DNA of 64,000 nt, from assembly GCA_036873755.1 (NCBI GenBank), contig JAVTVY010018944.1, positions 1-64,000 of the forward strand, in the 5' to 3' direction. The notes below the pieces were generated by a model that saw only the letters and a program-made list of their open reading frames with translations, did no database searches and was not told the origin of the DNA. The position numbers and the translations under genes are program-made. Each line of letters opens with the position of its first letter. Position 1 is the stretch's first letter. Source of the stretch: Hanleya hanleyi. Taxonomy: Eukaryota; Mollusca; Polyplacophora; Lepidopleurida; Hanleyidae. Of this stretch, positions 5,946 to 48,400 are shown in pieces.

Positions 5946-6286
5946 TCTACAAGGAACTGTGGGTAAACCGCTCAACCACAACTGTCGTCTGCTAGTTCAA
6001 ACTCGTTTTCTTCGGAGACAAATTTTCACCCGCTTCACGGTAAGTCTCTTCATTCATCTACTTATTTTGATCCATTTTGCTATATTTTCATCTCTAGCGT
6101 TCAGTTATTTACATAAATTTTGCAAAGCAGTTGGCACTTTTCCTGATTTTCAAATTTCTTTTGAACGACTCGGTTGCAACAACAGCACTCATAGCCCCCC
6201 CCCCCCCCTTTCCCCCTGCGCCCTCCTAGCTAGGCCGATATCTAGCGATATTGTCATAGAACAGAACCAATTTTGTGGTTCTAGTC

Positions 6287-8323
6287 ATGTCTTACTGGAC
6301 GAAGCGAAGAAAAGTTCAAGCAAAAATACAAAGGCACTTAGGAAATGTTGCAGATAATTTTATCCAGTCGCTTCATGATACCAGTATGGTTACTGATGAA
6401 GACAGACAGGGTGTTCGCGACTTGGATACACGCCGAGATCCCATTATAGAAACTGATGGCGATGAAGATCATCCTCTCCCCGAAACAAGCTATGGTTCAA
6501 ATGAAGTTGAAGTAACAGATGATGATTTCGACTATAGCTCAGACTTCCAAATTGATGACACTGAATCATCAGCAGATAATGATGATGAAACAGAGACTGA
6601 TCTCTCGATTTTACTGGCTAATTGGGCCGTAGAAAATAAAATAACCCATGCTGCTTTAGGAAATCTGTTGGACATTCTCAAAAGGTCCCATCCTAATCTG
6701 CCCAAAGACCCCCGGACCCTTCTATCTACCGGTAGAGTACAAGGAATAAAGACAATAGGTGGCGGCTCATACTACCATTTTGGTATTCAGTCTGGAATAA
6801 TTGAGAAATTAGCATCGCACCCAAAACTGCAAAGTGAGGACACAATATTCCTTCAATTAAGTACTGATGGCCTACCTTTGTTCAAAAGCAGTAACGCACA
6901 ATTCTGGCCTATTCTAGGTCTATTGCAAACATCCAGCAAGTCTGAGCCATTTATTATCGGTTTGTTCTTTGGGAAGGTAAAACCATCCAACCCTGAGGAA
7001 TTTCTGGCTGATTTTCTGGAAGAAATGGCTCTGTTACAGTCGCATGGATTCACTTATAATGGACGATTCTATGGCATTTCCATCACCTCTGTTATTTGTG
7101 ACGCCCCAGCCCGTGCTTTCATTAAAAGAGTCAAGTCCCATAGTGGTTATTCCGGGTGTGAGAAATGTACCCAGACTGGGGTATATAATGGAAAAATGAC
7201 TTTTCCTCAAACAGATGCCCCACTTCGAACAGATGAATCTTTCACCAGAGTGGAAGATGAAGATCATCACACTGGACCAAATCCATTCAGCCGGATATCA
7301 CTTGGAATGGTCTCAAAATTCCCTATAGATTATATGCACTTAGTTTGCCTTGGGGTCGTGCGGCGTCTTTTGATGCTGTGGATGAAAGGACCTCTGAAAA
7401 CTCGTTTGGGACGTGCAACAAAATCGCTGATTTCTGAATGCTTGGTATCTCTTCAAAAGTTTATCCCAAAGGAATTTGCCAGAAAACCGCGGTCCCTCGC
7501 TGAAATCGAAAGGTGGAAAGCTACCGAGTTTAGACTTTTCCTTCTTTACACAGGACCAGTGGTTTTAAAGGGGAAAGTAGGTGACGAGGTGTACAAGAAC
7601 TTCCTGTTGCTCTCAGTAGGAATCAGCATCCTTGTTAACCCACTTCTGTGCTCTCGTCTTTGTGATTATGCCAACAATATTTTGATTAAATTTGTTCAGC
7701 ATTTTGAGAAGTTGTATGGATCAGATCAACTCGTGTACAATGTTCACAACTTAGTTCATCTTGCTCAGGATGTGAAACAGCACGGACCCCTCGACACATT
7801 TTCAGCGTTTCCCTTTGAAAACTTTCTGAAGACTCTGAAAAGCTTCATCAGAAAGCCAAACTTTGCTCTACAGCAGGTGGTTTTGAGGCTATCAGAGAAA
7901 TCTAAATTACCAGTAGCACCTGCTCCAAAGACACCTCATTTACCTCTGAAAAAATCACATGATCGAGGCCCCCTTCCTTCTGAAAGTGCATACGTTCCTT
8001 GCGCACAGTTCCGCGAAGTTCACTTGGATAACTTCATGGTTTCGACAAACACTGGGGATAACTGTGTGAAAATTGGATCAAAGTTGTGCCTTGTCAAAAA
8101 CATATTAAAGTGTGAAACAGGGGTACACGTTGTATTCCAGACTTTCATGGTTTGTCAGGCCTTCTTCACCTATCCCCTAACTTCAAGCCACATTGACGTT
8201 AATACTGTTTCACAAATTTCTGATCAACTGCAAGTTGCTAAAATTCAGTCAGTAAAAGGAAAGTATGTTTTATTGCCATACCAGCAAAAGCAAGTTGCCA
8301 TTCCTCTCTTTCACACGTTTTAG
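6287..8323 (+). CDS. CACTA/EnSpm-like DDE transposase
   Basis: A 678-aa protein that should cut and rejoin the element ends in the nucleus. The start is the ATG at 6287, two bases after a ttctag acceptor. A gtaagt donor at 6040 suggests a 5' UTR intron (6040-6284). An acidic N-terminus (to about residue 110) leads into the catalytic core. Candidate DDE residues are D194 in STDGLPLF, D272 in CDAPAR and E511 in FPFENF. Also diagnostic are the CEKC pair just after CDAPAR, FPIDYMHLVCLGVVRR, and the PRSLAEIERWKATEF...LLYTGPVVL block. The frame is open throughout and could be functional. Related metazoan proteins are the EnSpm/CMC type; a KDZ-type relation was considered and fits less well. Confidence 0.8.
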   Translation: MSYWTKRRKVQAKIQRHLGNVADNFIQSLHDTSMVTDEDRQGVRDLDTRRDPIIETDGDEDHPLPETSYGSNEVEVTDDDFDYSSDFQIDDTESSADNDDETETDLSILLANWAVENKITHAALGNLLDILKRSHPNLPKDPRTLLSTGRVQGIKTIGGGSYYHFGIQSGIIEKLASHPKLQSEDTIFLQLSTDGLPLFKSSNAQFWPILGLLQTSSKSEPFIIGLFFGKVKPSNPEEFLADFLEEMALLQSHGFTYNGRFYGISITSVICDAPARAFIKRVKSHSGYSGCEKCTQTGVYNGKMTFPQTDAPLRTDESFTRVEDEDHHTGPNPFSRISLGMVSKFPIDYMHLVCLGVVRRLLMLWMKGPLKTRLGRATKSLISECLVSLQKFIPKEFARKPRSLAEIERWKATEFRLFLLYTGPVVLKGKVGDEVYKNFLLLSVGISILVNPLLCSRLCDYANNILIKFVQHFEKLYGSDQLVYNVHNLVHLAQDVKQHGPLDTFSAFPFENFLKTLKSFIRKPNFALQQVVLRLSEKSKLPVAPAPKTPHLPLKKSHDRGPLPSESAYVPCAQFREVHLDNFMVSTNTGDNCVKIGSKLCLVKNILKCETGVHVVFQTFMVCQAFFTYPLTSSHIDVNTVSQISDQLQVAKIQSVKGKYVLLPYQQKQVAIPLFHTF

Positions 8324-16381: not shown

Positions 16382-17168
16382 TTGTAGGTCCTTATTCCCA
16401 CATGGTCATTTTGGGTGTTATGTGGGTGTATGTTTGGGATAGAGAGGGACCGCTATGGGTTCGAATGGGGCGTGGAAGGTGTCATGTTGTAGCTCTCGGG
16501 GGAATAAATAAATGAATAAAAAAAATCAATAAAAAATAGTAGTAGACAAAGGGAAAATTGGGAAGTACTGACCATGCCCATTGAAGGGGCATCTGATGGG
16601 TTGGGTGTGCGGTAGGAATATCATTCTGCGCATGCGCAGACGCAATGCGGAGCTCTCGTCCAATCAGAAGCGAGTATTTCAAATCCGTCACAGAGCTCTC
16701 AGCCAATCAAAAGCGAGTATTTTGACCCGGTGCATTATGGGACATATCCAAGATGGCGGCACGTATGTTCAAGATGGCGGCACATCCGGTGTCGAAAACT
16801 GGCCATTTCGTCGGAATGTGGTCACCTAGTGTCGAAAACTGGCCCCTCTATGCGTCCCGCTAGCGCCTTGACGCCATGATATAGACCGGAGAGAGAAAAC
16901 AACAACAACAAGGATGACACATGAGGGAACAACAACAAGAAGATTTGTTTTCATATAGTTTATTTTCCCCTCCATCATAACATACCCACGCTGGGGGAGC
17001 CGCGTTGGGTATGTTTACAATTCAAGAAAGACTCTTGTCCAATCAGAGACCGCCATTTGCATCTGTCCTATTCGTTCCTGTCCGTTAGATGTATTCTTGT
17101 CCAATCAGAAGTCGCCATTTCAGAGAGTTCCTTCTTCGGTCATGTTCATTCTGAACCGTTTATTCTAA

Positions 17169-17729
17169 TCATCGGCGGACAGGCCTGGATATTCTTCGGG
17201 CAGCATGTCCTGAAACAGTTGTTTGCGCATTCTTATCGCATTTTCCAGGGCCTCGGTGGGTGGTAGCCTCTTCCAAGTGACGCTTGGTCTTCATGATGGA
17301 CCTGTGCGTGGGGTCGCCTTTCATTTCAAGCGGTAGTAAGGTATACTGTTCATAGATCGCCATGGCTGTTTTCCTGATGCGGGGGCGCATTTGGGTGTAC
17401 GTCTGCTGTAAATTATCCTCTCCGGCGTCCTCGATCGCTTCAGCGTAAGTATTGATAGCTGCTGTCACAATACGATCCCAGAAGGTAGGTGCTGCCTCAC
17501 TTTCCTGGGATGTAGGCTGACTATCTGAGGTCAAGCTCCCCGCATCACCAGATAGACTCTCGGCAATCTCTGTTTCGGTATCAGTCGGCACACTCTCATC
17601 AATCTCTGTATCAGTATCTGCCTCAACGGGCTCATCGGCGTCTTCAGTCCCATGTATATTTTTCTGGTGTCGCATCATATCGTAATGTCTGGTGAACGTG
17701 CGTTCGCACTCAGAGCAAGTATAAGTCAT
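17169..17729 (-). pseudogene. C2H2 protein gene, left-arm copy (frameshifted)
   Basis: The ATG at 17729 opens the same protein as the right-arm gene at 20114-20686: a C2H2 finger (CSEC...H...H), an acidic Thr/Glu/Asp-rich linker, then a helical domain. An 8-bp deletion near 17270, relative to the right arm, shifts the frame after HLEEA and replaces the C-terminus with an unrelated basic tail. A TATA-like box (CTTTTATA in plus orientation, 17776-17783) lies about 50 bp upstream. Confidence 0.75.
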
Positions 17730-17996
17730 GTTGACGGTTGAACGTCGACTGTGCGTGTTTTTGGAAATACGCTCGCTTTTATAGACAGTAACGCCCGTCA
17801 ACGCTTAGCTTAACGCTTCAACGCCCTGGTGAATTAGCTCAGAAGCTCTGATTTCCATGGAATTGACATCAATTCATCGAAATGCAGTGACGCCCGTCAA
17901 CGCCCGTCGTTACGCCTTAACGCTCGTCTCAACGCTTTAACACACTATCTTAACGCTTTAACGACGTTTAGTGATGCGTTCGAACAAATGCTTCTT

Positions 17997-18302
17997 TTAT
18001 GCTATTGCTCTGACATACGCCGCTTTCCAGTTCATGCCCGAGGTTTTCAACATCGACGCTGTTCTTTCAATTTCCATATGGACTGGGTCCTTATCTAACA
18101 ATTTCATATGGGTCAGTAAGTCGACATACTGCTGACGTAAAGCCCGTCGTAGTCTGGGTGCCAATCTGTTATGGGCTAAAATTGCAGCTTCCTCTTTCGA
18201 ATACCCTTTGCGTTGAAACTTGTTTCCTGTGGCCTCCAAAATCTCGCCCATCTCGGCGTCCATACTTTCTTTGAACAAATCCTTCCATAACCTCGAGTTC
18301 AC
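17997..18302 (-). pseudogene. Truncated ATPase-gene 3' end in left arm
   Basis: About 101 codons are almost identical to the C-terminal tail of the ATPase gene ending at 19846, with the ATPase domain missing. The homology continues only to 18323, where the arm ends at a hairpin. This shows the left arm arose by inverted copying of the right end. Confidence 0.75.
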
Positions 18303-18323
18303 ATTATCTTTTTCAACCTCGGG

Positions 18324-18617
18324 CGCGGTGTAAAGGTTTCCACCGTGCGGTGGAAACCTTTGCGCGCCGGGGTCAAAGGTCAGTTCCGGCCACCACCACC
18401 ACCACCACCACCACCACCACCACCACCACCGGGCGTTGACGCCCGGTGGTGGCGTTGGTGGCGTTGGTGGTGGCGTTGGTGGCGTTGATGGTGGCGTTGG
18501 TGGCGTTGGTGGTGGCGTTGGTGGCGTTGATGGTGGCGTTGGTGGCGTTGGTGGTGGTGTTGGTGGTGTGCGGTGGTGGTGTTGGTGGAGTCGGTGGTGG
18601 TGTGTGTGGTGGTGGTA
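18324..18617. repeat. Central hairpins and CCA/GGCGTT repeats
   Basis: Two perfect 14-bp hairpins, each with a TG loop, lie at 18332-18361 (aaaggtttccaccg arm) and 18423-18452 (ccaccaccgggcgt arm). Between them is (CCA)n at 18391-18430. After the second hairpin, GGTGGCGTT-type units run to about 18610. Long Gly- or His-rich frames here are products of the repeat. The position marks the junction between the inverted arm and the unique ATPase region. Confidence 0.75.
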
Positions 18618-18678
18618 GAGTCTTTAAATATAGGAATGAACATGTGTCCATCATCAGTCCATATGTATTGGTCGACTG

Positions 18679-19846
18679 ATGAACATGTCGTGTACGTGTA
18701 CGTTCTGTGAGAGAGCATTCTCTCGTCGCGATAGTATGCTCAGGCACATTCAACGCAAACACAACCAAGAGACACAGCCGAGTCCCGCTATAGGTCCAAG
18801 AAGAGCAGTAGAGCATCCCTATACGATGACGGTGAGCGGCCCTACAGGGTGTGGAAAGACATCCTGGGTGATGAAGTTCTTAGAGGGAGGTGTGGCAACC
18901 CCAGCTCCGACACGTGTTGTTTGGTGTTATAGCCAATGGCAGCCCGCCTATGAAACTACAAGGTTACAGAATGTGAGCTTTGTCCCAGGAATTCCTCACG
19001 ACATAGACGAACCCTATTACTTCGATTCCGAGCAGACCAACGTGGTAGTGCTCGATGATCTGATGAGTGCGGCCAAGGAAAATTCGAAAAGGGTCCCATC
19101 ATCGCAATCTGTCCGTCATCTATTTGACTCAGAATCTCTTCCCTCAAGGGAAGGCGTCCAGAGATATTGCCTTGAACTGCCAATACTTTGTGGTGTTCTC
19201 CAATCCCATTGACAGAGCACAAATCCGTGTGTTTGGTAGTCGAATTTATCCTCAGAACATTGACCATTTTATGCGGGCGTTTCAAGAAGCGACAATTCGT
19301 CCGTACGGCTACCTGTTCGTAGATTTAAAAGCCCATACCCCCGAAGATCGTCGGCTGACGACCCACCTGTTACCCGGCGAGGAATCACCACAACGGCATA
19401 TACCCCTACACCATCCGCCGAGTCCACTCCTGGCAGAGCAGCAGCAGCAGCCCACCCCCATACAGCGGGCCTCCTTCATACCACCAGTACCGGAATATCA
19501 CCCAACCGTGAAGGACCAACCCGAGGTTGAAAAAGATAATGTGAACTCGAGGTTATGGAAGGATTTGTTCAAAGAAAGTATGGACGCCGAGATGGGCGAG
19601 ATTTTGGAGGCCACAGGAAACAAGTTTCAACGCAAAGGGTATTCGAAAGAGGAAGCTGCAACTTTAGCCCATAACAGATTGGCACCCAGACTACGACGGG
19701 CTTTACGTCAGCAGTATGTCGACTTACTGACCCATATGAAATTGTTGGATAAGGACCCAGTCCATATGGAAATTGAAAGAACAGCGTCGATGTTGGAAAC
19801 CTCGGGCATGAACTGGAAAGCGGCGTATGTCAGAGCAATAGCATAA
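18679..19846 (+). pseudogene. C2H2 finger-A32-like ATPase fusion gene, frameshifted
   Basis: The start at 18679 follows a TATA-like ttaaatata near 18622. Residues 5-28 form a C2H2 finger (CTFC...H...H). Walker A is GPTGCGKT at residues 54-61 and Walker B is NVVVLDD at 121-127. The frame then breaks near 19090. The remainder is read in the next frame, from SHHRNLSVIYLTQNLF (the conserved block after Walker B in A32-type packaging ATPases) to a helical C-terminal domain ending at 19846. A few conserved codons appear lost at the break. In related elements the enzyme would pump DNA or drive capsid packaging; here it is inactivated unless recoded. No restored version is given. Confidence 0.72.
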
Positions 19847-19864
19847 AAGAAGCATTTGTTCGAA

Positions 19865-20050
19865 CGCATCATTAAACGTCGTTAAAGCGTTAAGAAAGTG
19901 TGTTAAAGCGTTGAGACGAGCGTTAAGACGTAACGACGGGCGTTGACGGGCGTCACTGCATTTCGATGAATTGATGTCAATTCCATGGAAATCAGAGCTT
20001 CTGAGCTAATTCACCAGGGCGTTGAAGCGTTAAGCTAAGCGCTGACGGGC
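19865..20050 (+). promoter_or_regulatory. Iteron-like GCGTTAA/GCGTTGA array
   Basis: About eight occurrences of GCGTTRA or its close variants lie between the ATPase gene and the downstream C2H2 gene, with a gaattgatgtcaattc hairpin in the middle. The left arm carries the mirror image (about 17790-17990). The layout resembles iterons or operator clusters. Origin or regulator function is inferred only from spacing and repetition. Confidence 0.5.
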
Positions 20051-20059
20051 ATTACTGTC

Positions 20060-20067
20060 TATAAAAG
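20060..20067 (+). promoter_or_regulatory. TATA box of the C2H2 gene
   Basis: TATAAAAG lies 47 bp upstream of the ATG at 20114, immediately after the iteron-like array. The same box is conserved in the left arm. Confidence 0.55.
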
Positions 20068-20113
20068 CGAGCGTATTTCCAAAAACACGCACAGTCGACG
20101 TTCAACCGTCAAC

Positions 20114-20686
20114 ATGACTTATACTTGCTCTGAGTGCGAACGCACGTTCACCAGACATTACGATATGATGCGACACCAGAAAAATATACATGGGACTGAA
20201 GACGCCGAGCAGCCCGTTGAGGCAGATACTGATACAGAGATTGATGAGAGTGTGCCGACTGATATCGAAACAGAGATTGCCGAGAGTCTATCTAGTGATG
20301 CGGGGAGCTTGACCTCAGATAGTCAGCCTACATCCCAGGAAAGTGAGGCAGAACCTACCTTCTGGGATCGTATTGTGACAGCAGCTATCAATACTTACGC
20401 TGAAGCGATCGAGGACGCCGGAGAGGATAATTTACAACAGACGTACACCCAAATGCGCCCCCGTATCAGGAAAACAGCCATGGCGATCTATGAACAGTAT
20501 ACCTTACTACCGCTTGAAATGAAAGGCGACCCCACGCACAGGTCCATCATGAAGACCAAGCGTCACTTGGAAGAGGCTATGGGGCTACCACCCACCGAGG
20601 CCCTGGAAAATGCGATAAGAATGCGCAAACAACTGTTTCAGGACATGCTGCCCGAAGAATATCCAGGCCTGTCCGCCGATGATTAG
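20114..20686 (+). CDS. C2H2 zinc-finger protein with acidic linker and helical tail
   Basis: A 190-aa intact protein. Residues 5-26 form one C2H2 finger (CSECERTFTRHYDMMRH...H). Residues 33-75 are an acidic, Thr/Ser-rich linker with a repeated TDTEI-type motif. Residues 80-190 are predicted helical (FWDRIVTAAINTYAEAI..., RPRIRKTAMAIYEQY, GDPTHRSIM). The finger and the helical tail are both similar in layout to those of the ATPase protein, so this looks like the same protein without the ATPase module. A role as DNA-binding regulator or packaging partner is inference. Confidence 0.65.
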   Translation: MTYTCSECERTFTRHYDMMRHQKNIHGTEDAEQPVEADTDTEIDESVPTDIETEIAESLSSDAGSLTSDSQPTSQESEAEPTFWDRIVTAAINTYAEAIEDAGEDNLQQTYTQMRPRIRKTAMAIYEQYTLLPLEMKGDPTHRSIMKTKRHLEEAMGLPPTEALENAIRMRKQLFQDMLPEEYPGLSADD

Positions 20687-21484
20687 AATAAACGGTTCAG
20701 AATGAACATGACCGAAGAAGGAACTCTCTGAAATGGCGACTTCTGATTGGACAAGAATACATCTAACGGGCAGGAACAAATAGGACAGATGCAAATGGCG
20801 GTCTCTGATTGGACAAGAGTCTTTCTTGAATTGTAAACATACCCAACGCGGCTCCCCCAGCGTGGGTATGTTATGATGGAGGGGAAAATAAACTATATGA
20901 AAAAAAATCTTGCTGTTGTTGTTCCCTCATGTGTCATCCTTGTTGTTGTTTTCTCTCTCCGGTCTATATCATGGCGTCAAGGCGCTAGCGGGACCCATAC
21001 AGGATCCAGTTTTCGACACTAGGTGACCACATCCCGAAAATGGCCAGTTTTCGACACCGGATGTGCCGCCATCTTGAACATACGTGCCGCCATCTTGGAT
21101 ATGTCCCATAATGCACCGGGTCAAAATACTCGCTTCTGATTGGCTGAGAGCTCTGTGACGGATTTGAAATACTCGCTTCTGATTGGACGAGAGCTCCGCA
21201 TTGCGTCTGCGCATGCGCAGAATGATATTCCTACCGCACACCCAACCCATCAGATGCCCCTTCAATGGGCATGGGCAGTACTTCCCAATTTTCCCTTTGT
21301 CTACTACTCGCCGATTTTATATTTTTTTATTTTTTATTGATTTTTTTTATTCATTTATTTATTCCCCCGAGAGCTACAACATGACACCTTCCACGCCCCA
21401 TTCGAACCCATAGCGGTCCCTCTCTATCCCAAACATACACCCACATAACACCCAAAATGACCATGTGGGAATAAGGACCTACAA

Positions 21485-22734
21485 GAGGCTTGGCCTAAAT
21501 TAAATTTTATTGTACAAACACTCAAGATGAGCAGGTACATAACAAATGTAACATACAATCACAAAAATACAGTGGCAATAGTTTTGGTGCAATACAACAT
21601 GGCCTAGTGCGAGATGTCTCCCTTGCGTAATAAGGTTCAGATGGCGCTATGGCTGGAAAGCTGCGATTATCCGGGGAATGCTGCCAATTGCCATCCTATG
21701 CGCCATTTTGTGACACAAAACTCTTAAATTCGTGCATCATATTATTCTAGAATGTATTGTGAACAGTTTGAGATAAATTGAGACGTACGGGTAAGAGAGA
21801 TCTTGTCTGTTTAGTCAATTGTTGGATCATGTCGTCTGCCAGTTCGTTGTTGGTGCTGGCAGTACTACGCTGTAATCTCAGCTGAGCCATGCGCGAGGCA
21901 TGGTGTAATTCTTGTTGATAAAGTCAATGAGTGATTTTGAGCGACAAACTCTATAAATAGTAAGATCGTAGGCATATATAGTGATGGTGTACGGATATTT
22001 CATGGTGTACGGGGATTTCCTAGCATAGATATTATTAAAAAATAATATCATTTTATTTTGCATTTTTCTGAAAGTTGATGGAAAATTGGCACTCTCTGGG
22101 AGCATCTGAGCAGTATAACATTATAACAACTGAACTTTGATTTATGCCAAATTGTCTCAAAAAAATGACGATCACTACATTGATAAACGTTACAAGCTGA
22201 AATGATCATTCAATCTCGGGTTTGCACTATAATTCAAGTTAGTCCTTAGACAATACTATTCTGCCCCGATAGCAGTGGAATGCATTGACGCGCGGCTGAG
22301 CACATGAGCTCTGGTTCATTAATTGGGTTGCCTTTGCTATCTTTTTAACATAGAAAATATTGTTAATCGATGATAACTGGGCTATTTTCTACCTGCAGTT
22401 GTCGGACTTGGAATAGCAGGAAAACTTATCCGAGAGAAAATTCCGAGAGAGGTGGGAGGGGTGGGGGGGATTTCCTAGCATAGATATTATTAAAAAATAA
22501 GTTATATTACATACGTGTACGGCGTTGATTGGTGTTACTGAGTGATACTGGTCAGCTGCATCTCATCAATGAGGCGAACACGGTACTTTTGAAGCTTCAC
22601 TTCCTGGGATGACTCCATGACTGTAGGCTCAGACTGATCAAAAACGGTGTAATAGTCTGGTGAATTTGCACTGGTAAAATGAAATAAATTAAAAGGTTCT
22701 CCACAGCTCATACAAGCAGGCAAGCAGGCTGGCT
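21485..22734. other. Gene-free interval with a possible LINE 3' UTR
   Basis: On the minus strand, 21485-21600 reads as a 3' UTR-like tail (gtgtttgtacaataaaattt), suggesting a LINE end. A 35-bp direct repeat ending tagatattattaaaaaataa occurs at 22011-22045 and 22466-22500, bracketing about 420 bp. No gene was recognised. Confidence 0.4.
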
Positions 22735-22800
22735 AGAGGTGAAGCAGGCAGGCAGGCAGGCAGGCAGGCAGACAGGCTGGTCAGGTCAGTCAGGCAGGTA
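22735..22800. repeat. AGGC microsatellite
   Basis: A run of (aggc)n with a few interruptions. Confidence 0.8.
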
Positions 22801-22884
22801 GTGCAATGAATACACCCCACCCCATGCCGTACATACCCTCTATGTCTACATGCCGATCGTTGACTTGAGCTCAGTAAACACTTG

Positions 22885-23132
22885 TACCATTTTGACCACC
22901 ACACACGCCGCCATTTTGACCACCACACATGCCGCCATTTTGACCACCACACATGCCGCCATTTTGACCACCACCACGCAGCCGCCATTTTGACCACCAC
23001 CACACAGCCGCCATTTTGACCACCACCACACAGCCGCCATTTTGACCACAACCACACAGCCGCCATTTTGACCACACTCCCACAGCCGCCATTTTGACCA
23101 CCACCACACCACAGCCGCCATTTTGACCACAC
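22885..23132. repeat. Minisatellite of GCCGCCATTTTGACCAC units
   Basis: About nine units of 22-27 bp share gccgccattttgaccac, with variable CCA-rich spacers. A tenth, diverged unit lies at the left. In inverse orientation each unit reads CAAAATGGCGGC, a YY1-like site. Open frames across the array (repeated KMAA) are repeat artefacts. Confidence 0.85.
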
Positions 23133-23316
23133 ACCAACAAGTCTAGACATGCCTTGATCACGTGATCAAGTTACGCCCCAAATACGGCCCGGGGGAACAA
23201 AAAAGTAGGTCAATGTGGTCTGTGCCGTGTTTTATATACTACTCACCGTATCACCTGAATTTTCAGCGAAATGGGCGCTGTTAACATATTGAGTTTGCAT
23301 TCTGAGCGCTATATGT

Positions 23317-23660: not shown

Positions 23661-26600
23661 ATGAAGACAGACCCGAGGAACCTTAGTGCAGGTTTCTCGG
23701 CCGAGTCTCTAATAGTTCGAAATGCACTAAGACCTTTTTCAATCCAAATGACAGATATATTTCTGACAGCAAAGCAAGGCCACGACATCAAACCTTGTAA
23801 TATTGCGCTTGATGATTGTTTAGCACCGAATTCTACATGTAATAATTTCAAAATTTTTAAGTGTGGACATCGTGGATGTCTCATGTGTCCACTCTTTAAT
23901 ACTTCAGATGCATTTAGTTCCGCGTTAACTGGTAACTCATATTCTGTTAACTGGTATGTTGATCTTAGTTGTTCTACTAAAAAGTGTATGTATTTAGTTT
24001 CCTGTAAGAAGTGTGATCAACAGTATGTTGCCAAGACCACCCAAAGACTCCATCTTAGGGTGAACGGTCACAGAAAATCCGTTGGGAAAAAGTAATTGCT
24101 TATAGGTAAGCATTTTTCTGGACCCGACCATGGCTGGGATAACTCTAGTATTCAGATCATAGACGTCGTCTATCCATCTACTAAGGATTCCCCCTTTGGA
24201 TTTGAGAGAAAAATCCGAGAGCGGGAATTATTCTGGATGCTAGAACTTGGGTCAGTGTTTCCGTTTGGTTTAAATGATAATGTCAGCGGGTTCGGCAATG
24301 CTACAAACGCCGTTCAAATATATCCAACATTACCCAACTATTTAAACCCCATCAACGGAGACATCGCAGCCATGGTTGGCGAAAGTTTAATAGTTCGATG
24401 GTTCACGATCATACCACTTTAAATTACTTAGTGGGTTTAACTAACACACTCAATAGTATACATAGCTTACGTACAGTTCTGTATGCGTTACCTCTGAGAG
24501 CTTTAGATCAAATAGCCAGAGATATACAACAATCTGCGTCTTCAGGAAAAATAATACCACCAAAAATCATTAAAGTATGTCAAGATGTAGCGTATTTTCG
24601 GTTGTATCGTCCAGTGAACATAATCGAAACATCTCAAGATCGGCTTTTCTTGAAACTCAACTACTTAGATAAAGGACTGGTCATCATTAATTTACCTCGA
24701 ATCCTGAATGATCCAGAGGTACGCAACGCTGTACCAAACTATTTTAGGTTCACAGAACCTCCTTGCATTTCATATAAGTATACTAAATCTATAGCCACCA
24801 AAATATTCAATTACTCCAATGCTGTCCAGGAGTTTGACTGGAACTTATACACGTCAGGAGGCTATAGTTGTGAATCGTTGAACTTTATCTATACACCATG
24901 CAAACATATTGTAAATGGTAACCTTGATGTGGTGAGTGATAAGGACCTAAAATTACTCCTGATGAGTACCAAACTATTTTAGGTTCACAGAACCTCCTTG
25001 CATTTCATATAAGTATACTAAATCTTTAGCCACCAAAATATTCAATTACTCCAATACTGTCCAGGAGTTTGACTGGAACTTATACACGTCAGGAGGCTAT
25101 AGTTGTGAATCGTTGAACTTTATCTACACACTATGCAAACATATTGTGACTGGTGACCTTGATGTAGTGAGTGATAAGGATCTGAAATTACTCCTGATGA
25201 AAGGACCTAAATATAGAGAGCCAAGAAGAATAAACCTGAAGGCCGACCAGAAGATAGTCCTGTCTGCATTGGAACAGTACGTTATTGATTGGTCTAAGCG
25301 AGAAAAAGTTGAACCTACATTATTGGCTGATTGGCTGGACCTCACCAAGAGGAAGGTCGTTGAAACAATCCGCCATATTGACAGAAGTACTCTTCCCCAA
25401 GCAAAACAAGTACTGAGAAACTTCAATTCGCAAGAAATTCTAGCAAATCTCCAGAGTAAATTCGTCATAGTCCCAGCAGACAAAGCTCCGAATAATATAA
25501 TCTTCAAATGTAAATATTACTATTACCAGGTGCTGGTTAAAGAATTGAGTGTAAAAATGTCTTCATCAAATACGTCTACTTACTCCCAAACTGCATTTAC
25601 TCTGGAAGATATATTTAACAATCACAAAAAGTTTCTCAGGGAAAGAGGTATTTGTCTTCCAACCAATCATAACGACATACCAAAACTATACTGGACTCCC
25701 AAAATGCATAAAACACCATACAAAGCTAGATTCATAGCTGATTCTAGAAGCTGCACCACCAAGCTTCTTTCACCCCTATTGACGAGGGCCCTTCAGGAGG
25801 TAAAAGCATTTTGGGAAAGGTATTTCGCCATTATTTCTAAGAACTCTGGCGTTGAATGTATGTGGATATTGAAAAACTCAAAATGTCTTACGGAAGAACT
25901 TGATGCTAAAGGTCACATACCGTACAGACATGTATCCACATGGGATTTCTCGACTCTCTATACTGCAATCCCTCATCAGGACCTTATTGACCGTATAAGT
26001 TCATTAATAGTATCTGTGTTCAAGAAAACTGATCGTAGATATATTGATGTCGGAAGCCATAAAGCATTCTTTAGCTCTACTACATACAAGAGATATCATT
26101 CATGGGATGTTTCTTTGTTTGTAGAGTTGCTTGAATTTCTCATTAAAAATATCTATGTGAAATTTGGCAACACTATATATCAGCAGCATATAGGTATTCC
26201 AATGGGTACTAATTGTGCACCCCTGTTGGCTGATCTGTATCTGTTCTCTTATGAATATGACTATATGCAGGCGCTTTCAAAAACCGATCCTTTCAAAGCC
26301 GGCCGATCCTTCTCATTCACCAAACGCTATATAGACGATCTTCTCTCTGTGGATAATCGCTATATAAATGACGCAGTGAAGGATATATATCCACCTTCAC
26401 CGGATTTGAAGGAAACTACAGATAGCCGTACAGGCACACCATATTTAGACCTATATCTCTATAAAAATGAAGCGGGCATTCTCTCTCGTCGACTTTATGA
26501 CAAAAGAGATGATTACAGTTTCGACATCGTATACTATCCCTTTCTGGACAGTAATATTCCAGTGGGGCCTGCATATGACGTATACATATCTCGCTTAGTA

Positions 26601-26790
26601 GCATTTGCTAGATCCTGTATTAAATGTGACGATTTTAATTAACGTCACAAAACATTGGTGCAGAAACTTAAAAAACACGGCTATTCCACCAAGCGCCTAC
26701 ACTCAAAGTTTCTCAAATTTGGCGATACATATCGCATTCTGATAGCAAAATACGAACGTAGCGTGCAAGATCTATGGCTCTACCTTTCGT
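23661..26790 (+). pseudogene. Naiad A polyprotein: GIY-YIG, linker, reverse transcriptase (broken)
   Basis: The ATG at 23661 opens the nuclease part: a Cys/His cluster (KCGHRGCLMCP), then YLVSCKKCDQQYVAKTTQ, in which the usual Gly of YVG is Ala. An in-frame TAA stands at 24093 where copy B has CAA. A frameshift near 24390 leads into a linker that has lost its CxC pair. A 235-bp internal tandem duplication (24731-24965 repeated at 24966-25200) shifts the frame again. The RT frame 25113-26642 keeps WDFSTLYT, GIPMGTNCAPLLADL and catalytic YIDD. A second TAA at 26640 replaces CAA of copy C, and coding homology then runs on to about 26790. Confidence 0.82.
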
Positions 26791-37795: not shown

Positions 37796-37877
37796 TTGAG
37801 TCATGTTCCAAACTTTTGTTATAGCAGCAATAGTGCATAAATACGTCTTGGAACTCAAATACTTGTCATACTTTGTC

Positions 37878-40800
37878 ATGCCACTACTGCCACCGATATC
37901 ACCAACTATCTTCCCCCTTTTATTTCTTGTAGTGATCTGGTCAGCAAGGTCGGGAATAGGTGATGAAAATAATACCAATAACGCAATGGTTGGTGAATCT
38001 ATACAATTACCACATGGAAAGACTATCAAGGGAGAAGGAGGGGACAAAGGAATTGATTTGGGTGGCATTGGTATACCTGCTAATTCTTTTGGGCTCAGTG
38101 GGTCTAACCAAAGTCCTACCTGTTGGTTACGTGACCTCTGCTCAGGGCGATGTGAACTTTCATCTCGTGTTTTCGATAAAAAAATCAGCAACAGTATCCC
38201 GTGCAAATGTGACCAGCTATGTGTAGTATTTGGAGATTGTTGCGTTGACTATTTTCAAGAATGTTTCAACCTCACCCAAGACGGAGAGTCAGAGCTTGTT
38301 ACGAACGTAATGACCGCCATACAGGAATATTTGGTCTTTGTAAATGTGAACGAAAGCGTACCTAAACGACAAGTGCCCGATATTGCAGCGTCCTGTACTG
38401 TATCATTGAGAGAGCTATCGTCCAACTTCACTCTCGAAAGTCTTTTCCTTGTTCAAAGTTGTTTTCAATGTAAACGGCTGACAATATATGATGATCGCAA
38501 GTTCACCAAAAAATCCCTCCACGTGTTAACAAAATGCCCGATCTTAGGGGAGAAACAGTCAACCAAGGTGGCTTGTGAGTCTCCTAAACCTCCTTTATTC
38601 AACATACCCGTGCAAGACATTAAGGAACCCGCCCTGATTTACCGCAATATGCACTGCGCAATCTGCCATGGTAAAGAAGTTGCTGACGTCTCCCAATGGA
38701 TTCCTGCCATTTCTTGTCCGGAACCTGAATTCACAGAGATCATTCTTAATTCAAGTAACGAGATAAACGAATATATAGAAGGAAAGTGCATGATTGGTTA
38801 TACTCCAACGAACGCAACCTGGACCAGGGCTGAGTGTCCGTACGATCACACATTCAAAGAATTACCAACATTGGTTAACTCATCGAGGATCAATATTGAA
38901 CTGAAGTTGTGTCAGTTGTATTTCGACCCAGTTTCTCATCCACTTAATAGAAGCACGATTTATCGGAATGAGCACTGTGCCAACCTTGACATGGTTCGCA
39001 ATTTAGATTGCCTCGATATAAAAGAATTAGAAAGCGATTCCATACCGGGACCGACCTTGATAGTAAAACCATTGTCCGTATTGTTCAGTTTCAAGAATTC
39101 CGCTGTCGGTATCCAGTATGGGGAAGAAATCATATATTTATCTCCTGCTGAAGGCGAGGAATGTTCAGTAGATGAGGTTTACAGCTTCTTAAGCCGGAGA
39201 TGTGAGAAAAATCTTGCAACGATGTCACTCACAGAAACTGAAATGTTCATCCATATCGATATCCGCGTGTTGTCCAGTGTTTGTGGTCTTGTCGTCCCAG
39301 ATATAGGTAGTTTTTTGGGCTCTACTTTACTTTTGGGTGAGGACAAGGCATGTGTTACGCTAGAAGCCACCGAATTTAAGTTAGCAACGCGACAGGAGAA
39401 TGCGACGCTTGTCATTAATGAACAACCGTCAGCCATTGTGAATTTGCTTCTCACTAAACCTGATGGCATGAATACCCAAAAGTGCAAAAGCAAGATACAT
39501 TGTGGTTGGTGGCACATAGATTACAAGGAGTTGAATAACTTAGAACATAAGGCCACCACTGACCAAGATTATTGCGAAACAGAGCTAGACATTTTGTTTG
39601 AATCGGATGATTTAGCCTGGGAAACCTTCGTCGATTTCTTGAAGAACGTGAACGAGGCAATTGACAAATATTCTGGAATATTCTATAGCCCTGACAGGGA
39701 ATTTATTTTGGTATACGAGAATATCAGCGTCACTAATGAGAACAGAGAATCGAATAAGACCTGTCCATCCGAAAACAGAGTGGATATCGCCTATACCGTT
39801 AACGAGGAGAACCCATGGATTCTTACCCTAGACCAAGAACCTTCGCGAAATATAAGTCTACAGAACTGGGCCTTTTTCTTGGATTACCACTTTGGTTCAA
39901 ACAGCAGCAATGGACGACATGACTTTAAAATATGTGACCAGTTCGGTAGCGGGGACCAATACTGGTTTCCTAATTGTAACGTTGTCTTTTCGGTTGATCA
40001 CACAAAATACTGGACAAAAGATGGAAATCTTTACATCAGCGTTAACTTCAATGTCTTTAAGATCAGCAAATATCAGAAGGTAAAAGGTACGATGTATTAC
40101 TGTGCAGATTCAGTGATAAAAGTACCCGATGTTCTCCATGATAACTCGGTCCTCACAATTGTTAGTTTAAGTTTATCTCTCACTTCACTTCTGTTCGTGA
40201 TTATGACATACACATTTTTCTCGCCGTTGCGCAATCTCCCTGGAAAAATAGTTATTGGCCTGACTTCAAATCTCTTCTGTGCGATGCTTCTGTTCCTGTT
40301 TGGTACAGGACAGACTAAGAATCCTGTTCTCTGTACTATCATGGCTGCTCTTCTTCATTTCTTCTGGCTGGCCTCATTCTTCTGGACAACTGTTCTGTCT
40401 TTCAACCTAGCTCAAACTTTTGGCTCCAAAACTATGACTGTCCGATACGAGAAAAAATCTTTTCTGTATTACTGCACATATTCATTCGCTGGTCCGCTGC
40501 TAATTGTTCTTGCGACACTTCTGGAAGGGTTCTTTCACAAACCTGATTCCTGGGTGCATGGCTCTTATGGCAGTGCTGCTGCCTGCTGGATCAGTCAACG
40601 ATGGGTGAACATTGTCGCCTTTGGCTTGCCCGTTGGACTCACGGTTTTGCTGAACACTGTTATGTTTCTGTATACCGTCCGAAGTCTCTATAAGATATCC
40701 AAGATAACCAAACGTGTCCATAAAAAGGAGAATCGTGGACAATCGACAATCTTGTATTTCAAACTGTCTCTCATAATGGGACTCTCCTGGGCTCTATTCT

Positions 40801-41009
40801 TTTTATCCGGCGTTCTGGAAAATGAGATTCTACGGGCTCTCAGTATTGTCCTCAATGCTCTACAAGGCTTCTTTCTGTTCCTTGTTTTCGTGTGCAACAA
40901 GCATGTGTACACTTTATACAGGGACGTGTTCCACAGTTTCACCTTGAAAGGACAAACCCTTCCTGCCGGAACTGAAACCACACTTACCAGCAAACAAAAT
41001 CGGATCTAA
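37878..41009 (+). CDS. Somatomedin-B, Methuselah-like class B GPCR (single exon)
   Basis: A 1043-aa receptor counted from the ATG at 37878, chosen because MPLLPPISPTIFPLLFLVVIW makes a signal peptide. An upstream in-frame ATG at 37803 would bury it. Residues about 82-129 form a somatomedin-B domain (CSGRC...CKCDQLC...GDCCVDY). A Cys-rich ectodomain has two YRNxHCA motifs. Seven hydrophobic segments lie from about 757 to 1010. FFWTTVLSFNLAQTF in TM3 and LSLIMGLSWALFFLSGV in TM6 match Methuselah-like class B receptors. No GPS cleavage motif is seen before TM1. The gene is uninterrupted by introns. Ligand unknown. Confidence 0.88.
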   Translation: MPLLPPISPTIFPLLFLVVIWSARSGIGDENNTNNAMVGESIQLPHGKTIKGEGGDKGIDLGGIGIPANSFGLSGSNQSPTCWLRDLCSGRCELSSRVFDKKISNSIPCKCDQLCVVFGDCCVDYFQECFNLTQDGESELVTNVMTAIQEYLVFVNVNESVPKRQVPDIAASCTVSLRELSSNFTLESLFLVQSCFQCKRLTIYDDRKFTKKSLHVLTKCPILGEKQSTKVACESPKPPLFNIPVQDIKEPALIYRNMHCAICHGKEVADVSQWIPAISCPEPEFTEIILNSSNEINEYIEGKCMIGYTPTNATWTRAECPYDHTFKELPTLVNSSRINIELKLCQLYFDPVSHPLNRSTIYRNEHCANLDMVRNLDCLDIKELESDSIPGPTLIVKPLSVLFSFKNSAVGIQYGEEIIYLSPAEGEECSVDEVYSFLSRRCEKNLATMSLTETEMFIHIDIRVLSSVCGLVVPDIGSFLGSTLLLGEDKACVTLEATEFKLATRQENATLVINEQPSAIVNLLLTKPDGMNTQKCKSKIHCGWWHIDYKELNNLEHKATTDQDYCETELDILFESDDLAWETFVDFLKNVNEAIDKYSGIFYSPDREFILVYENISVTNENRESNKTCPSENRVDIAYTVNEENPWILTLDQEPSRNISLQNWAFFLDYHFGSNSSNGRHDFKICDQFGSGDQYWFPNCNVVFSVDHTKYWTKDGNLYISVNFNVFKISKYQKVKGTMYYCADSVIKVPDVLHDNSVLTIVSLSLSLTSLLFVIMTYTFFSPLRNLPGKIVIGLTSNLFCAMLLFLFGTGQTKNPVLCTIMAALLHFFWLASFFWTTVLSFNLAQTFGSKTMTVRYEKKSFLYYCTYSFAGPLLIVLATLLEGFFHKPDSWVHGSYGSAAACWISQRWVNIVAFGLPVGLTVLLNTVMFLYTVRSLYKISKITKRVHKKENRGQSTILYFKLSLIMGLSWALFFLSGVLENEILRALSIVLNALQGFFLFLVFVCNKHVYTLYRDVFHSFTLKGQTLPAGTETTLTSKQNRI

Positions 41010-45406: not shown

Positions 45407-48400
45407 CGCTTAACCCGGGGTTAGGGGCCGTATGAACCCATCTGCTGGTGGACAAGTTATCCCGGAGGCCGGGCCCCTGCACATCCTAAATTCATCATGA
45501 ATACAATAGAAGGAAATAATGGTAAGACAGATCCGATGAACATTATTGCATGTTCCTCGGCCGAGTCTCTAATAGTTATAAATGCACTAGGACCTTTTTC
45601 AGTCCAAATGGCAGATACATTTCTGGAAGTAAAACAAGGTCTCAACATCAAACCTTGTAACATTGCGCTTGATGATGGTTTAATACCGAATTCTACATGT
45701 AATAATTTTATCATTTCTAAGTGTGGACACCGTGGATGTCTAAAATGTCCACTCTTCAATACTTCAGCTGCATTTAGTTCCGCGTTAACTGGTAACTCAT
45801 ATTCTGTAAACTCGTATGTTCATCTTAGTTATAATACAACAAACTGTATTGATTTATTTTCTGGTAAGAAGTGTGGTCAGCAGTGTGTTGGCAAGACCAC
45901 CCAAATACTCTATCTAAGGGCGAATGGTCACAGGGCAATTGCTTATAAATAAGCATTTTTCTGGACCCGACCATGGCTGGGATAACTTTAACATTCAGAT
46001 CATAAACGTCGTCTATCCATCTACCAAGGATCCCCGCATTGGATTGGAGACAAAAATCCGAGAGCGGGAAATATTCTGGATGCTAGAAATTGGGTCAGTG
46101 TTTCCGTATGGTTTAAATGATATTGTCACTGGGTTCGGCAATGTTACAAACCGCCGTTCAAATATATCCAATATTACCCAGCTATTTAAACCGTATCAAC
46201 TGAGGCATCGCAACCATGGTTGGAGAGAGTTTAAGATTGAGATGATTCACGAACATATCACTTTAGATTACTTAGTGGGTTTAACTAACACACCCAATAA
46301 TATACATAGCTTGCGTACAGTTCTGTCTGGGTTACCTCTGAGAGCTTTAAATTATATAGCGAGAAATATACAACATTCTGCGTCTTCAGGAAATATGATA
46401 CCACCAACACCCACTAAGCGTATGTCAAGATACAGCGTATTTTCTACTGTATCGTCCAGTGAACATAATCGAAACATCCAAAGATCGGTTTTTCTTGAAA
46501 CTCCACTACTTAGATAAACGACTGGACATTATTATTTTACCTCGAATCCTGAATGATCCAGAGGTACGCAACGCTGCACCAAACTATTTTAAGTTCACAT
46601 AACCATCTTGCATTTCATATAAGTATACTAAATCTAAAGCCAGCAAAATATTCAATTACTCTAATGCTGTCAATGAGTTTGACTGGAACTTATACACGTC
46701 GGGAGGCTATAGTTGTGATTGTGAATCGTCGAACTTTATCTATACACCATGCAAGCATATTGTGACTGGTAACCTTGATATGGTGAATGATAATGACCTA
46801 AGTTTACTCCTGATGAAGGGACCTAAATATAGAGAGGCGAGAAGAATAAACCTGAAGGCCGACCAGAAGCTAGTCCAGTCTGCATTTGAGTAGTACGTTA
46901 TTGATTGGTCTAAGAGAGAAACAGTTGAACATACAGTACTCGTTGATTGGCTGGACCTCACCAAGAGCAAGGTCGTTGAAACAATCCGCCATAGTGACAG
47001 AATTATCCTTCCCCAAACAAAACAAGTACCGAGAATCCACAATTCGCAAGAAGTTGTAAATCTCCAAAGTAAATTCGTCATAATCCCAGCAGACAAAACT
47101 CAAAATAATATAATATTCATATGCAAAGATTATTATTGCCAGGTGCTGATTGAAGAATTGAGTGAAAACATATCATCACGAATTACGTCTACTTACTCCC
47201 AAACTGCATTTACTCTGGAAGATCTATTCAACAATCACAAATCATTTCTCCTGGAAAGAGTTTTTTCTTTCAACCAATCATAACGACATACCAAAAGTAT
47301 ACTGGACTCCCAAAATGTATCAATCACTATACAAAGCTAGATTCATAGCTGGTTCTGGAAGCGCACCACCAAGCTTCTTTCAACCCTGTTGACGGGGGTC
47401 CTTCAGGAAGTAAAAGCATTTCGGGAAAGATATTGCGCCACTGTTTCTAAGAACTTGATGCTAAAGGTCACATACCGTACAGACCTGTATCCACATGGGA
47501 TTTCTCGACTCTCTATACTACAATCCCTCATCAGGCCCTTATTGACCGTCTAAGTTCATTAATAGTATCTGTGTTCAAGAAAACTGATCGTAGATATATA
47601 TAATGTCGGAAGCCATAAAGCATTCTTTAGCTCTATTACATACAAGACATATCATTCATGGGATGTTTCTTTGTATATAGAGTTGCTTGAATTTCTCATT
47701 AAAAATATTTATGTGAAATTTGGCAACACAATATATCAGCAGCATATAGGTATTCCAATGGGCACTATTGTGCACCCCTGTTGGCTGATCTGTATCTGTT
47801 CTCTTATGAATATGACTATATGCAGGCGCTTGCAAAAACCGATCCATTCAAAGCCCGTTCCTTCTCATTCACCAAACGCTATATAGACGATCTTCTCGCT
47901 GTGGATAATCGCTATATAAATGACGCAGTGAAGGATATATATCCACCTTCACTGGATTTGAAGGAAACTACAGACAGCCCTGCAGGCACATCATATTTAG
48001 ATCTATATCTCTATAAAAATGAAGAGGGCATTCTCTCTCGTCGACTTTATGACAAAAGAGACGATTACAATTTCGACATCGTAAACTATCCCTTTCTGGA
48101 TAGTAATATTCCAGTGGGACCTGCATATGGCGTATACATATCTCGCTTAGTAGCATTTGCTAGATCCTGTGTTAAATGTGACGATTTTAATCAACGTCAC
48201 AAAACATTGTTACAGAAACTTATGAAACAGGGCTATTCCACCAAACGCCTCCACTCAAAGTTTCTCAAATTTGGCGATACATATCGCATGCTGATAAAAA
48301 AAATACGAACGTAGCGTGCAGGATCTATGGCGCTACATTTCGTAACTTGTGTCTAATTCCGCTTAACCCGGGGCTAGGGTCCGAATGAACAGTCACAATC

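Follow-up and report, generated by a model that had tools for sequence, protein, structure and literature searches.

A damaged palindromic, non-autonomous element with Polinton ends and a C2H2-ATPase gene in Hanleya hanleyi

We have characterized a damaged palindromic element in Hanleya hanleyi, found in a 64,000-nucleotide stretch of contig JAVTVY010018944.1 (assembly GCA_036873755.1, positions 1 to 64,000; hereafter the window). The element is non-autonomous and bears the ends of a Polinton. Two inverted arms surround a short centre, and they carry a gene for an ATPase with an N-terminal C2H2 finger and a second C2H2 gene, open reading frame 2 (ORF2). Its features, in window coordinates, are:

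16382..18323, minus strand: left arm, inner part only; its outer part is lost at a junction observed in the window contig alone (97% inverted match to 19520-21484)
17169..17729, minus strand: left-arm ORF2 (C2H2 gene) with an altered C-terminal part (ORF list; C2H2 match)
17997..18302, minus strand: what remains of the left-arm ATPase, its C-terminal tail (ORF list; the whole ATPase sits here in the most complete copies)
18324..18678, no strand: palindrome centre, CCA/GGT-rich simple repeats (repeat analysis)
18679..19212, plus strand: first part of the ATPase, with C2H2 finger (18694-18762), Walker A (18838-18861) and Walker B (19042-19065) (ORF list, domain search, alignment)
19067..19846, plus strand: remainder of the ATPase in another frame, with the HHRN..YLTQNLF block, the rest of the core and a helical tail (alignment; tail helices from the model of a homologue)
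19520..23243, plus strand: right arm, complete to the terminus
20114..20686, plus strand: ORF2, 190 amino acids (aa), N-terminal C2H2 finger (ORF list, C2H2 match)
23128..23243, minus strand: terminal repeat common to the window and a 20.9-kb Polinton (40/40 at 23128-23167; 79% over 82 columns at 23167-23244)
23231..23243, minus strand: right terminus AGTAGTATATAAA, read inward
23244..23249, no strand: 6-bp target-site duplication CACCGT (partner on contig C23164, stretch L016)

The segments 16382-18323 and 19520-21484 repeat each other in inverted orientation, with 97% identity over 1970 aligned columns, and their kilobase length and repeated occurrence exclude chance as their source. An earlier reading, made from the letters of the DNA (the sequence-only reading), had reported these two long, near-identical arms and an A32-type ATPase, and both stand. 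Its boundaries do not: it placed exact inverse ends at 16382 and 21484, with TTGTAGGTCC as the end. The right arm extends past 21484 to 23243, the continuation being 96-98% identical to the copies on C23164 and C4160, and finishes in TTTATATACTACT, which is AGTAGTATATAAA on the minus strand, followed by CACCGT. Forty places were scored out of 2,499 first-look candidates, and among them the window alone crosses the junction at 16382; the sequence to its left is also present in at least four other places. Since the right arm runs on and the left junction is confined to the window among the scored places, positions 16382 and 21484 mark merely the limit of the arm-to-arm match. TTGTAGGTCC is accordingly not a terminus, and the real end is AGTAGTATATAAA. 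At 16382, either this allele has been truncated or the contig was misjoined.

The ATPase of the window is read as two overlapping ORFs because of a short deletion near 19087, after Walker B, which disrupts the frame; intact copies are present elsewhere in the genome. Both Walker motifs (A and B) and the HHRNLSVIYLTQNLF block of A32-type ATPases are present, as the sequence-only reading had it, and so is the C2H2 finger N-terminal to the ATPase (below the Pfam cut-off, conserved in relatives). Likewise, no polymerase, integrase or capsid gene was seen among the ORFs of 16382..21484. ORF2 returned no homologue at E <= 0.001, and its tail is weakly similar to the ATPase tail, as compared on the proteins of copy L024. 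PHROGs gave weak matches only, and Rfam found nothing in the window. An alignment of 39 proteins contained Walker A, Walker B and a conserved HHRN..Q block, and structure-library searches with a predicted model, whose matches covered mainly residues 36-249, identified the fold as that of viral packaging NTPases. The element therefore carries the FtsK/A32-type ATPase that is characteristic of Polinton/Maverick elements. A C2H2 finger before the ATPase core recurs in relatives that are 33-45% identical; the few named C2H2-ATPase relatives come from corals, a sea anemone and a symbiont metagenome-assembled genome (MAG), and no relative was confirmed for the ATPase alignment among IMG/VR viral contigs.

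The genome (2.48 Gb, 52,793 contigs) was searched with the first part of the ATPase protein, which yielded 38,785 first-look candidates (not a copy number), 150 of them scored. Twenty stretches were fetched, nine for an inverted pair in the match list and 11 without one. Inverted arms around a short centre were found in 18 of the 20, including nine of the 11 picked without a listed pair, and the other two (L020 and L023) hit contig ends at the start of the ATPase. Four stretches (L013, L024, L025 and L027) contain both AGTAGTATATAA ends, 8.5-9.7 kb apart. The most complete copies consist of two head-to-head copies of a 408-aa C2H2 and ATPase gene and a 190-aa C2H2 gene. The divergent ATPase starts are separated by about 0.3-0.6 kb in copies with both, and by 0.75 kb in the rearranged L019. 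Damage takes several forms: one arm is reduced to ORF2 and outer parts in L021, the ATPase is shortened in one arm in L014, L016, L024, L027 and L028, the right arm breaks off in L017 and L022, and L010 has an insertion confined to one arm. Frames of at least 400 residues hold 60 of the 150 scored ATPase matches, three of the 60 with an internal stop. Stretches L001-L028 gave no tblastn match to the rve integrase of contig L034, to a C2H2-fused family B DNA polymerase (PolB) or to two likely capsid proteins. An rve integrase, a protein-primed PolB and a double jelly-roll capsid protein being Polinton/Maverick features, we do not class the element as a Polinton.

Target-site duplications of 6 bp adjoin the AGTAGTATATAAA ends of L024 (CAGCCC), L025 (GACCTT) and L027 (ATCGTA). 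The duplication CACCGT precedes the left terminus on C23164 and follows the right terminus in the window. When the two flanks were joined, the window and C23164 each matched 100% on their own side; the other 38 of 40 scored places were relatives at 74-83% identity, all of which cross the joint without the element (paralogous empty sites). Because of the shared CACCGT, the joined flanks and the 38 empty sites, we regard this as one insertion with a real duplication, and most likely the window and C23164 hold its opposite ends, perhaps from two haplotypes. An end pattern of 21 specified bases had 562 exact matches in the genome, and its reversed control had none. Among the matches listed, 12 contigs have inverted end pairs with spacings of 3.1 to 20.9 kb, and the variable triplet is identical at the two ends of each. 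A 6-bp target duplication with terminal inverted repeats beginning AG is the hallmark of Polinton/Maverick elements; we found it in three of the four two-ended copies, in the window together with C23164, and on contig C4988.

The last of these, C4988:252404-273270, is a full-size Polinton of 20.9 kb with the same ends as the ATPase palindromes, a TCCCAG 6-bp duplication and terminal bases that are 40/40 identical. It was sampled as seven short pieces plus the right end. Its terminal modules are 79-100% identical to the right end of the window element. An integrase part with a chromodomain is 35% identical to the L034 integrase and lies upstream of the ATPase, unlike in contig L037. The A32 ATPase is 43% identical to that of the palindromic element (P0001) over 187 columns and stops where the linker and tail of the latter begin; a tree of ATPase cores did not place it firmly because the branches are long. 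Two ORFs follow it in the order found in L037 (52% and 29% identical), and a further protein shares 50% identity with the likely L037 capsid protein. The likely capsid proteins had no Pfam or PDB sequence match, and a profile of two of them found nothing in PDB. No nameable gene was found in C4988:253500-254100 (L061). A piece from the integrase side (L056) matches stretch L011 at 83% in DNA; we set this aside as evidence, since the match probably falls outside the element of L011.

Other loci of this kind were seen. C7280:17105-38020 has the same kind of ends as C4988 at nearly equal spacing (20.9 kb). A genome search with the likely Polinton capsid protein gave 24,546 first-look candidates, 108 of them scored; some of the scored matches adjoin a conventional PolB, and many are on contigs without a listed PolB match. 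On C2834 a likely capsid gene lies 7.6 kb from a AGTAGTATATAAAG end.

The palindromic element resembles the C4988 Polinton in its AGTAG-starting ends, terminal inverted repeats, 6-bp duplication and A32/FtsK-type ATPase. It differs in being under half the size and almost wholly palindromic, in having no integrase or capsid gene found, in the C2H2 finger and helical tail of its ATPase, and in the extra ORF2. The ATPase core is 34-52% identical, in best segments, to those of the adintovirus-like or Polinton-like contigs L029-L034, L036 and L037, in which the ATPase is 215-242 aa long (five complete frames) and in most adjoins PolB. Unlike the element, L034 also carries integrase and likely capsid genes beside its ATPase and PolB. 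No inverted repeats were found in the five of these contigs tested, nor in L035. The L035 C2H2-ATPase is 33% identical over residues 7-204, but that locus is single and asymmetric, with PolB back to back and no palindrome on the contig. As an observation in its own right, L034:1236-10788, binned as Limnohabitans, is adintovirus-like, with a polymerase, an ATPase, a chromodomain integrase and a likely capsid gene. 'Ziftr' zinc-finger regulators, described in some adintoviruses and an adomavirus, are likewise zinc-finger proteins of related animal DNA viruses, but in the passages concerned they are separate genes with no ATPase fusion (PMC11071296).

The two arms of a copy evolve jointly. In a 1-kb stretch compared across 13 two-armed copies (78 pairs), the arms of one copy differ by 0.1-1.9%. 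At 1316 columns, counted across the 78 pairs, the two arms of a copy agree and the copies disagree, against 23 columns with arm-specific shared differences; the window and C23164, a single insertion, account for 13 of the 23. In 41 of the 78 pairs, both within-copy arm distances are below every between-copy distance. Left and right labels do not cluster in a tree of arms, as expected of arbitrary labels. Subfamily differences are common to both arms, which shows their joint evolution; replication through a fold-back intermediate may be responsible, with gene conversion in the genome as the alternative.

A second family of palindromes carries PolB. Contig C4967 (L050/L051) holds a palindrome of ~17.5 kb with ends AGTAGTATAG, each arm of which encodes a C2H2-fused PolB (1171 aa, three fingers), and C28015 and C41214 (L052-L055) hold inverted PolB pairs with matching ends AGTAGTATAGGATG. 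Of 15 exact ends of the PolB type, eight sit 2.0-2.2 kb beyond a PolB gene. None of the three PolB palindromes has a clean target duplication; C4967 shows TAGGCG/TAGGCC plus two additional bases. Most named relatives of the C2H2-PolB are from bivalves (Mytilus, Mya, Ruditapes, Saccostrea); there are also one mite and one symbiont MAG. At L035:2607-5146, binned with a Bathymodiolus symbiont, a C2H2-PolB and a C2H2-ATPase are divergent, with starts less than 100 nt apart. Both palindrome families begin with AGTAGTATA, and DNA similarity between L050 and the ATPase stretches L013, L024, L025 and L027 was sought and none found. It is tempting to infer a two-gene ancestor, PolB plus C2H2-ATPase, that split into two palindromes.

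Elsewhere in the window, an open frame of 1068 aa at 37803-41009 has Somatomedin_B and secretin-family seven-transmembrane domains. A reverse-transcriptase-like frame lies at 25113-26642 (RVT_1 below cut-off), with a second set of frames, similar by eye, at 45497-48314; both are possibly Penelope-like. A 682-aa frame at 6275-8323 has a DUF4218 match just under the cut-off and is possibly transposase-related.

On balance, and with moderate confidence, we regard the window element as a damaged, palindromic, probably non-autonomous Polinton satellite, likely moved by the integrase of the C4988 Polinton and predicted to use its ATPase to favour the packaging of its own DNA. This partly bears out the sequence-only reading, which offered a satellite or deletion derivative of a larger element, or a minimal lineage; its 5.1-kb boundaries are replaced by Polinton ends. 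The C4988 integrase would integrate the satellite in trans, the natural reading because the ends are shared and the duplications equal in length. The palindrome may replicate via a self-folding strand, with mismatches between arms repaired so that the arms are kept alike, and both gene copies may be expressed divergently from the central region. The C2H2 finger would act as a DNA address for the ATPase, leading to helper capsids being filled with satellite DNA; we infer this steering from the finger, the retention of the gene and the helper's own separate ATPase. ORF2, with a finger and tail and no motor, may serve as a specificity or inhibitory subunit. The proposed logic resembles that of phage-inducible chromosomal islands (PICIs), which redirect helper packaging by a protein of their own and are bacterial, terminase-based and established by experiment (PMC6739421). 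As would be expected of a PICI-like satellite and its helper, the element and C4988 have cis ends in common.

Several observations weigh against this interpretation. With many copies broken, the ATPase and ORF2 may be mere passengers. In a possible, if less probable, account, the element is a passive Polinton-ended derivative, spread in trans in the manner of a miniature inverted-repeat transposable element while the ATPase and ORF2 decay. The match list holds many short or interrupted ATPase frames, the window ATPase is itself broken, and the evidence of selection is weak: the ratio of nonsynonymous to synonymous substitutions is 0.5-0.8 among open copies, with medians of 0.52 for ORF2 (298 pairs from 28 frames, some at overlapping loci) and 0.79 for the ATPase (3 usable pairs only). 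Yet long frames persist in 60 of the 150 scored matches, the combination of finger and ATPase core recurs in relatives 33-45% identical, and at 43% identity to the helper's ATPase the gene is not a fresh fragment of it. The satellite interpretation is also weakened by one of the four two-ended copies, L013, which has no target duplication, and by the C2H2 matches of the ATPase and ORF2 and the rve match of the C4988 integrase piece, all below Pfam cut-offs. The capsid-protein label of L034, L037 and L057 was assigned by eye. A 222-aa frame of C4988 resembles the exonuclease region of a polymerase by eye, but searches did not confirm a PolB there, and the comparison of ATPase fingers covers the satellite side. 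The pairs in the arm comparison are not independent, and in 37 of the 78, mostly from a recent burst, arms within a copy are not closer than those between copies; the case for joint arm evolution thus rests on the subfamily differences.

It is quite improbable that the ATPase and PolB palindromes, perhaps together with capsid elements, form the complementary segments of a multipartite element whose ancestor carried PolB and C2H2-ATPase genes back to back. The C4967 palindrome with the inverted end pairs at C28015 and C41214, the regular distance of eight of the 15 PolB-type ends from a PolB gene, the divergent pair of L035 and the common start AGTAGTATA would fit such a split genome. The two families nevertheless have only 9 terminal bases in common and no DNA match between L050 and the four ATPase stretches, clean duplications are absent from all three PolB palindromes, exact ends number 562 against 15 (by patterns that differ in strictness), and a full-size Polinton with ATPase-family ends exists. 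An origin of the palindromes in fold-back reads or the assembler is hardly credible: the 16382 junction was seen in the window contig only and long palindromes are hard to assemble, but the arms differ by 0.1-1.9%, L010 has its insertion in one arm only, the flanks are unlike on the two sides, and a matching 6-bp duplication is found in three of four copies and in the window/C23164 pair. A bolder extension of the satellite interpretation, which we consider rather unlikely, is a satellite dynasty that pirates virions in a PICI-like manner, with self-folding hairpin replication and a finger-addressed motor filling helper capsids; the PolB palindrome would then be the other half of a split two-gene satellite.

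To our knowledge, non-autonomous derivatives usually lack any viral gene, and in the literature listings searched we noticed no Polinton derivative described as palindromic or as carrying a zinc-finger ATPase. The satellite proposed here retains one reshaped virion-assembly gene, a packaging-type motor, in a palindromic genome, and the joint evolution of its arms offers a trace, at the level of sequence, of the way such palindromes replicate. Should the motor steer packaging, virion pirates of Polintons exist, and this would also mean that animals make Polinton virions worth pirating.

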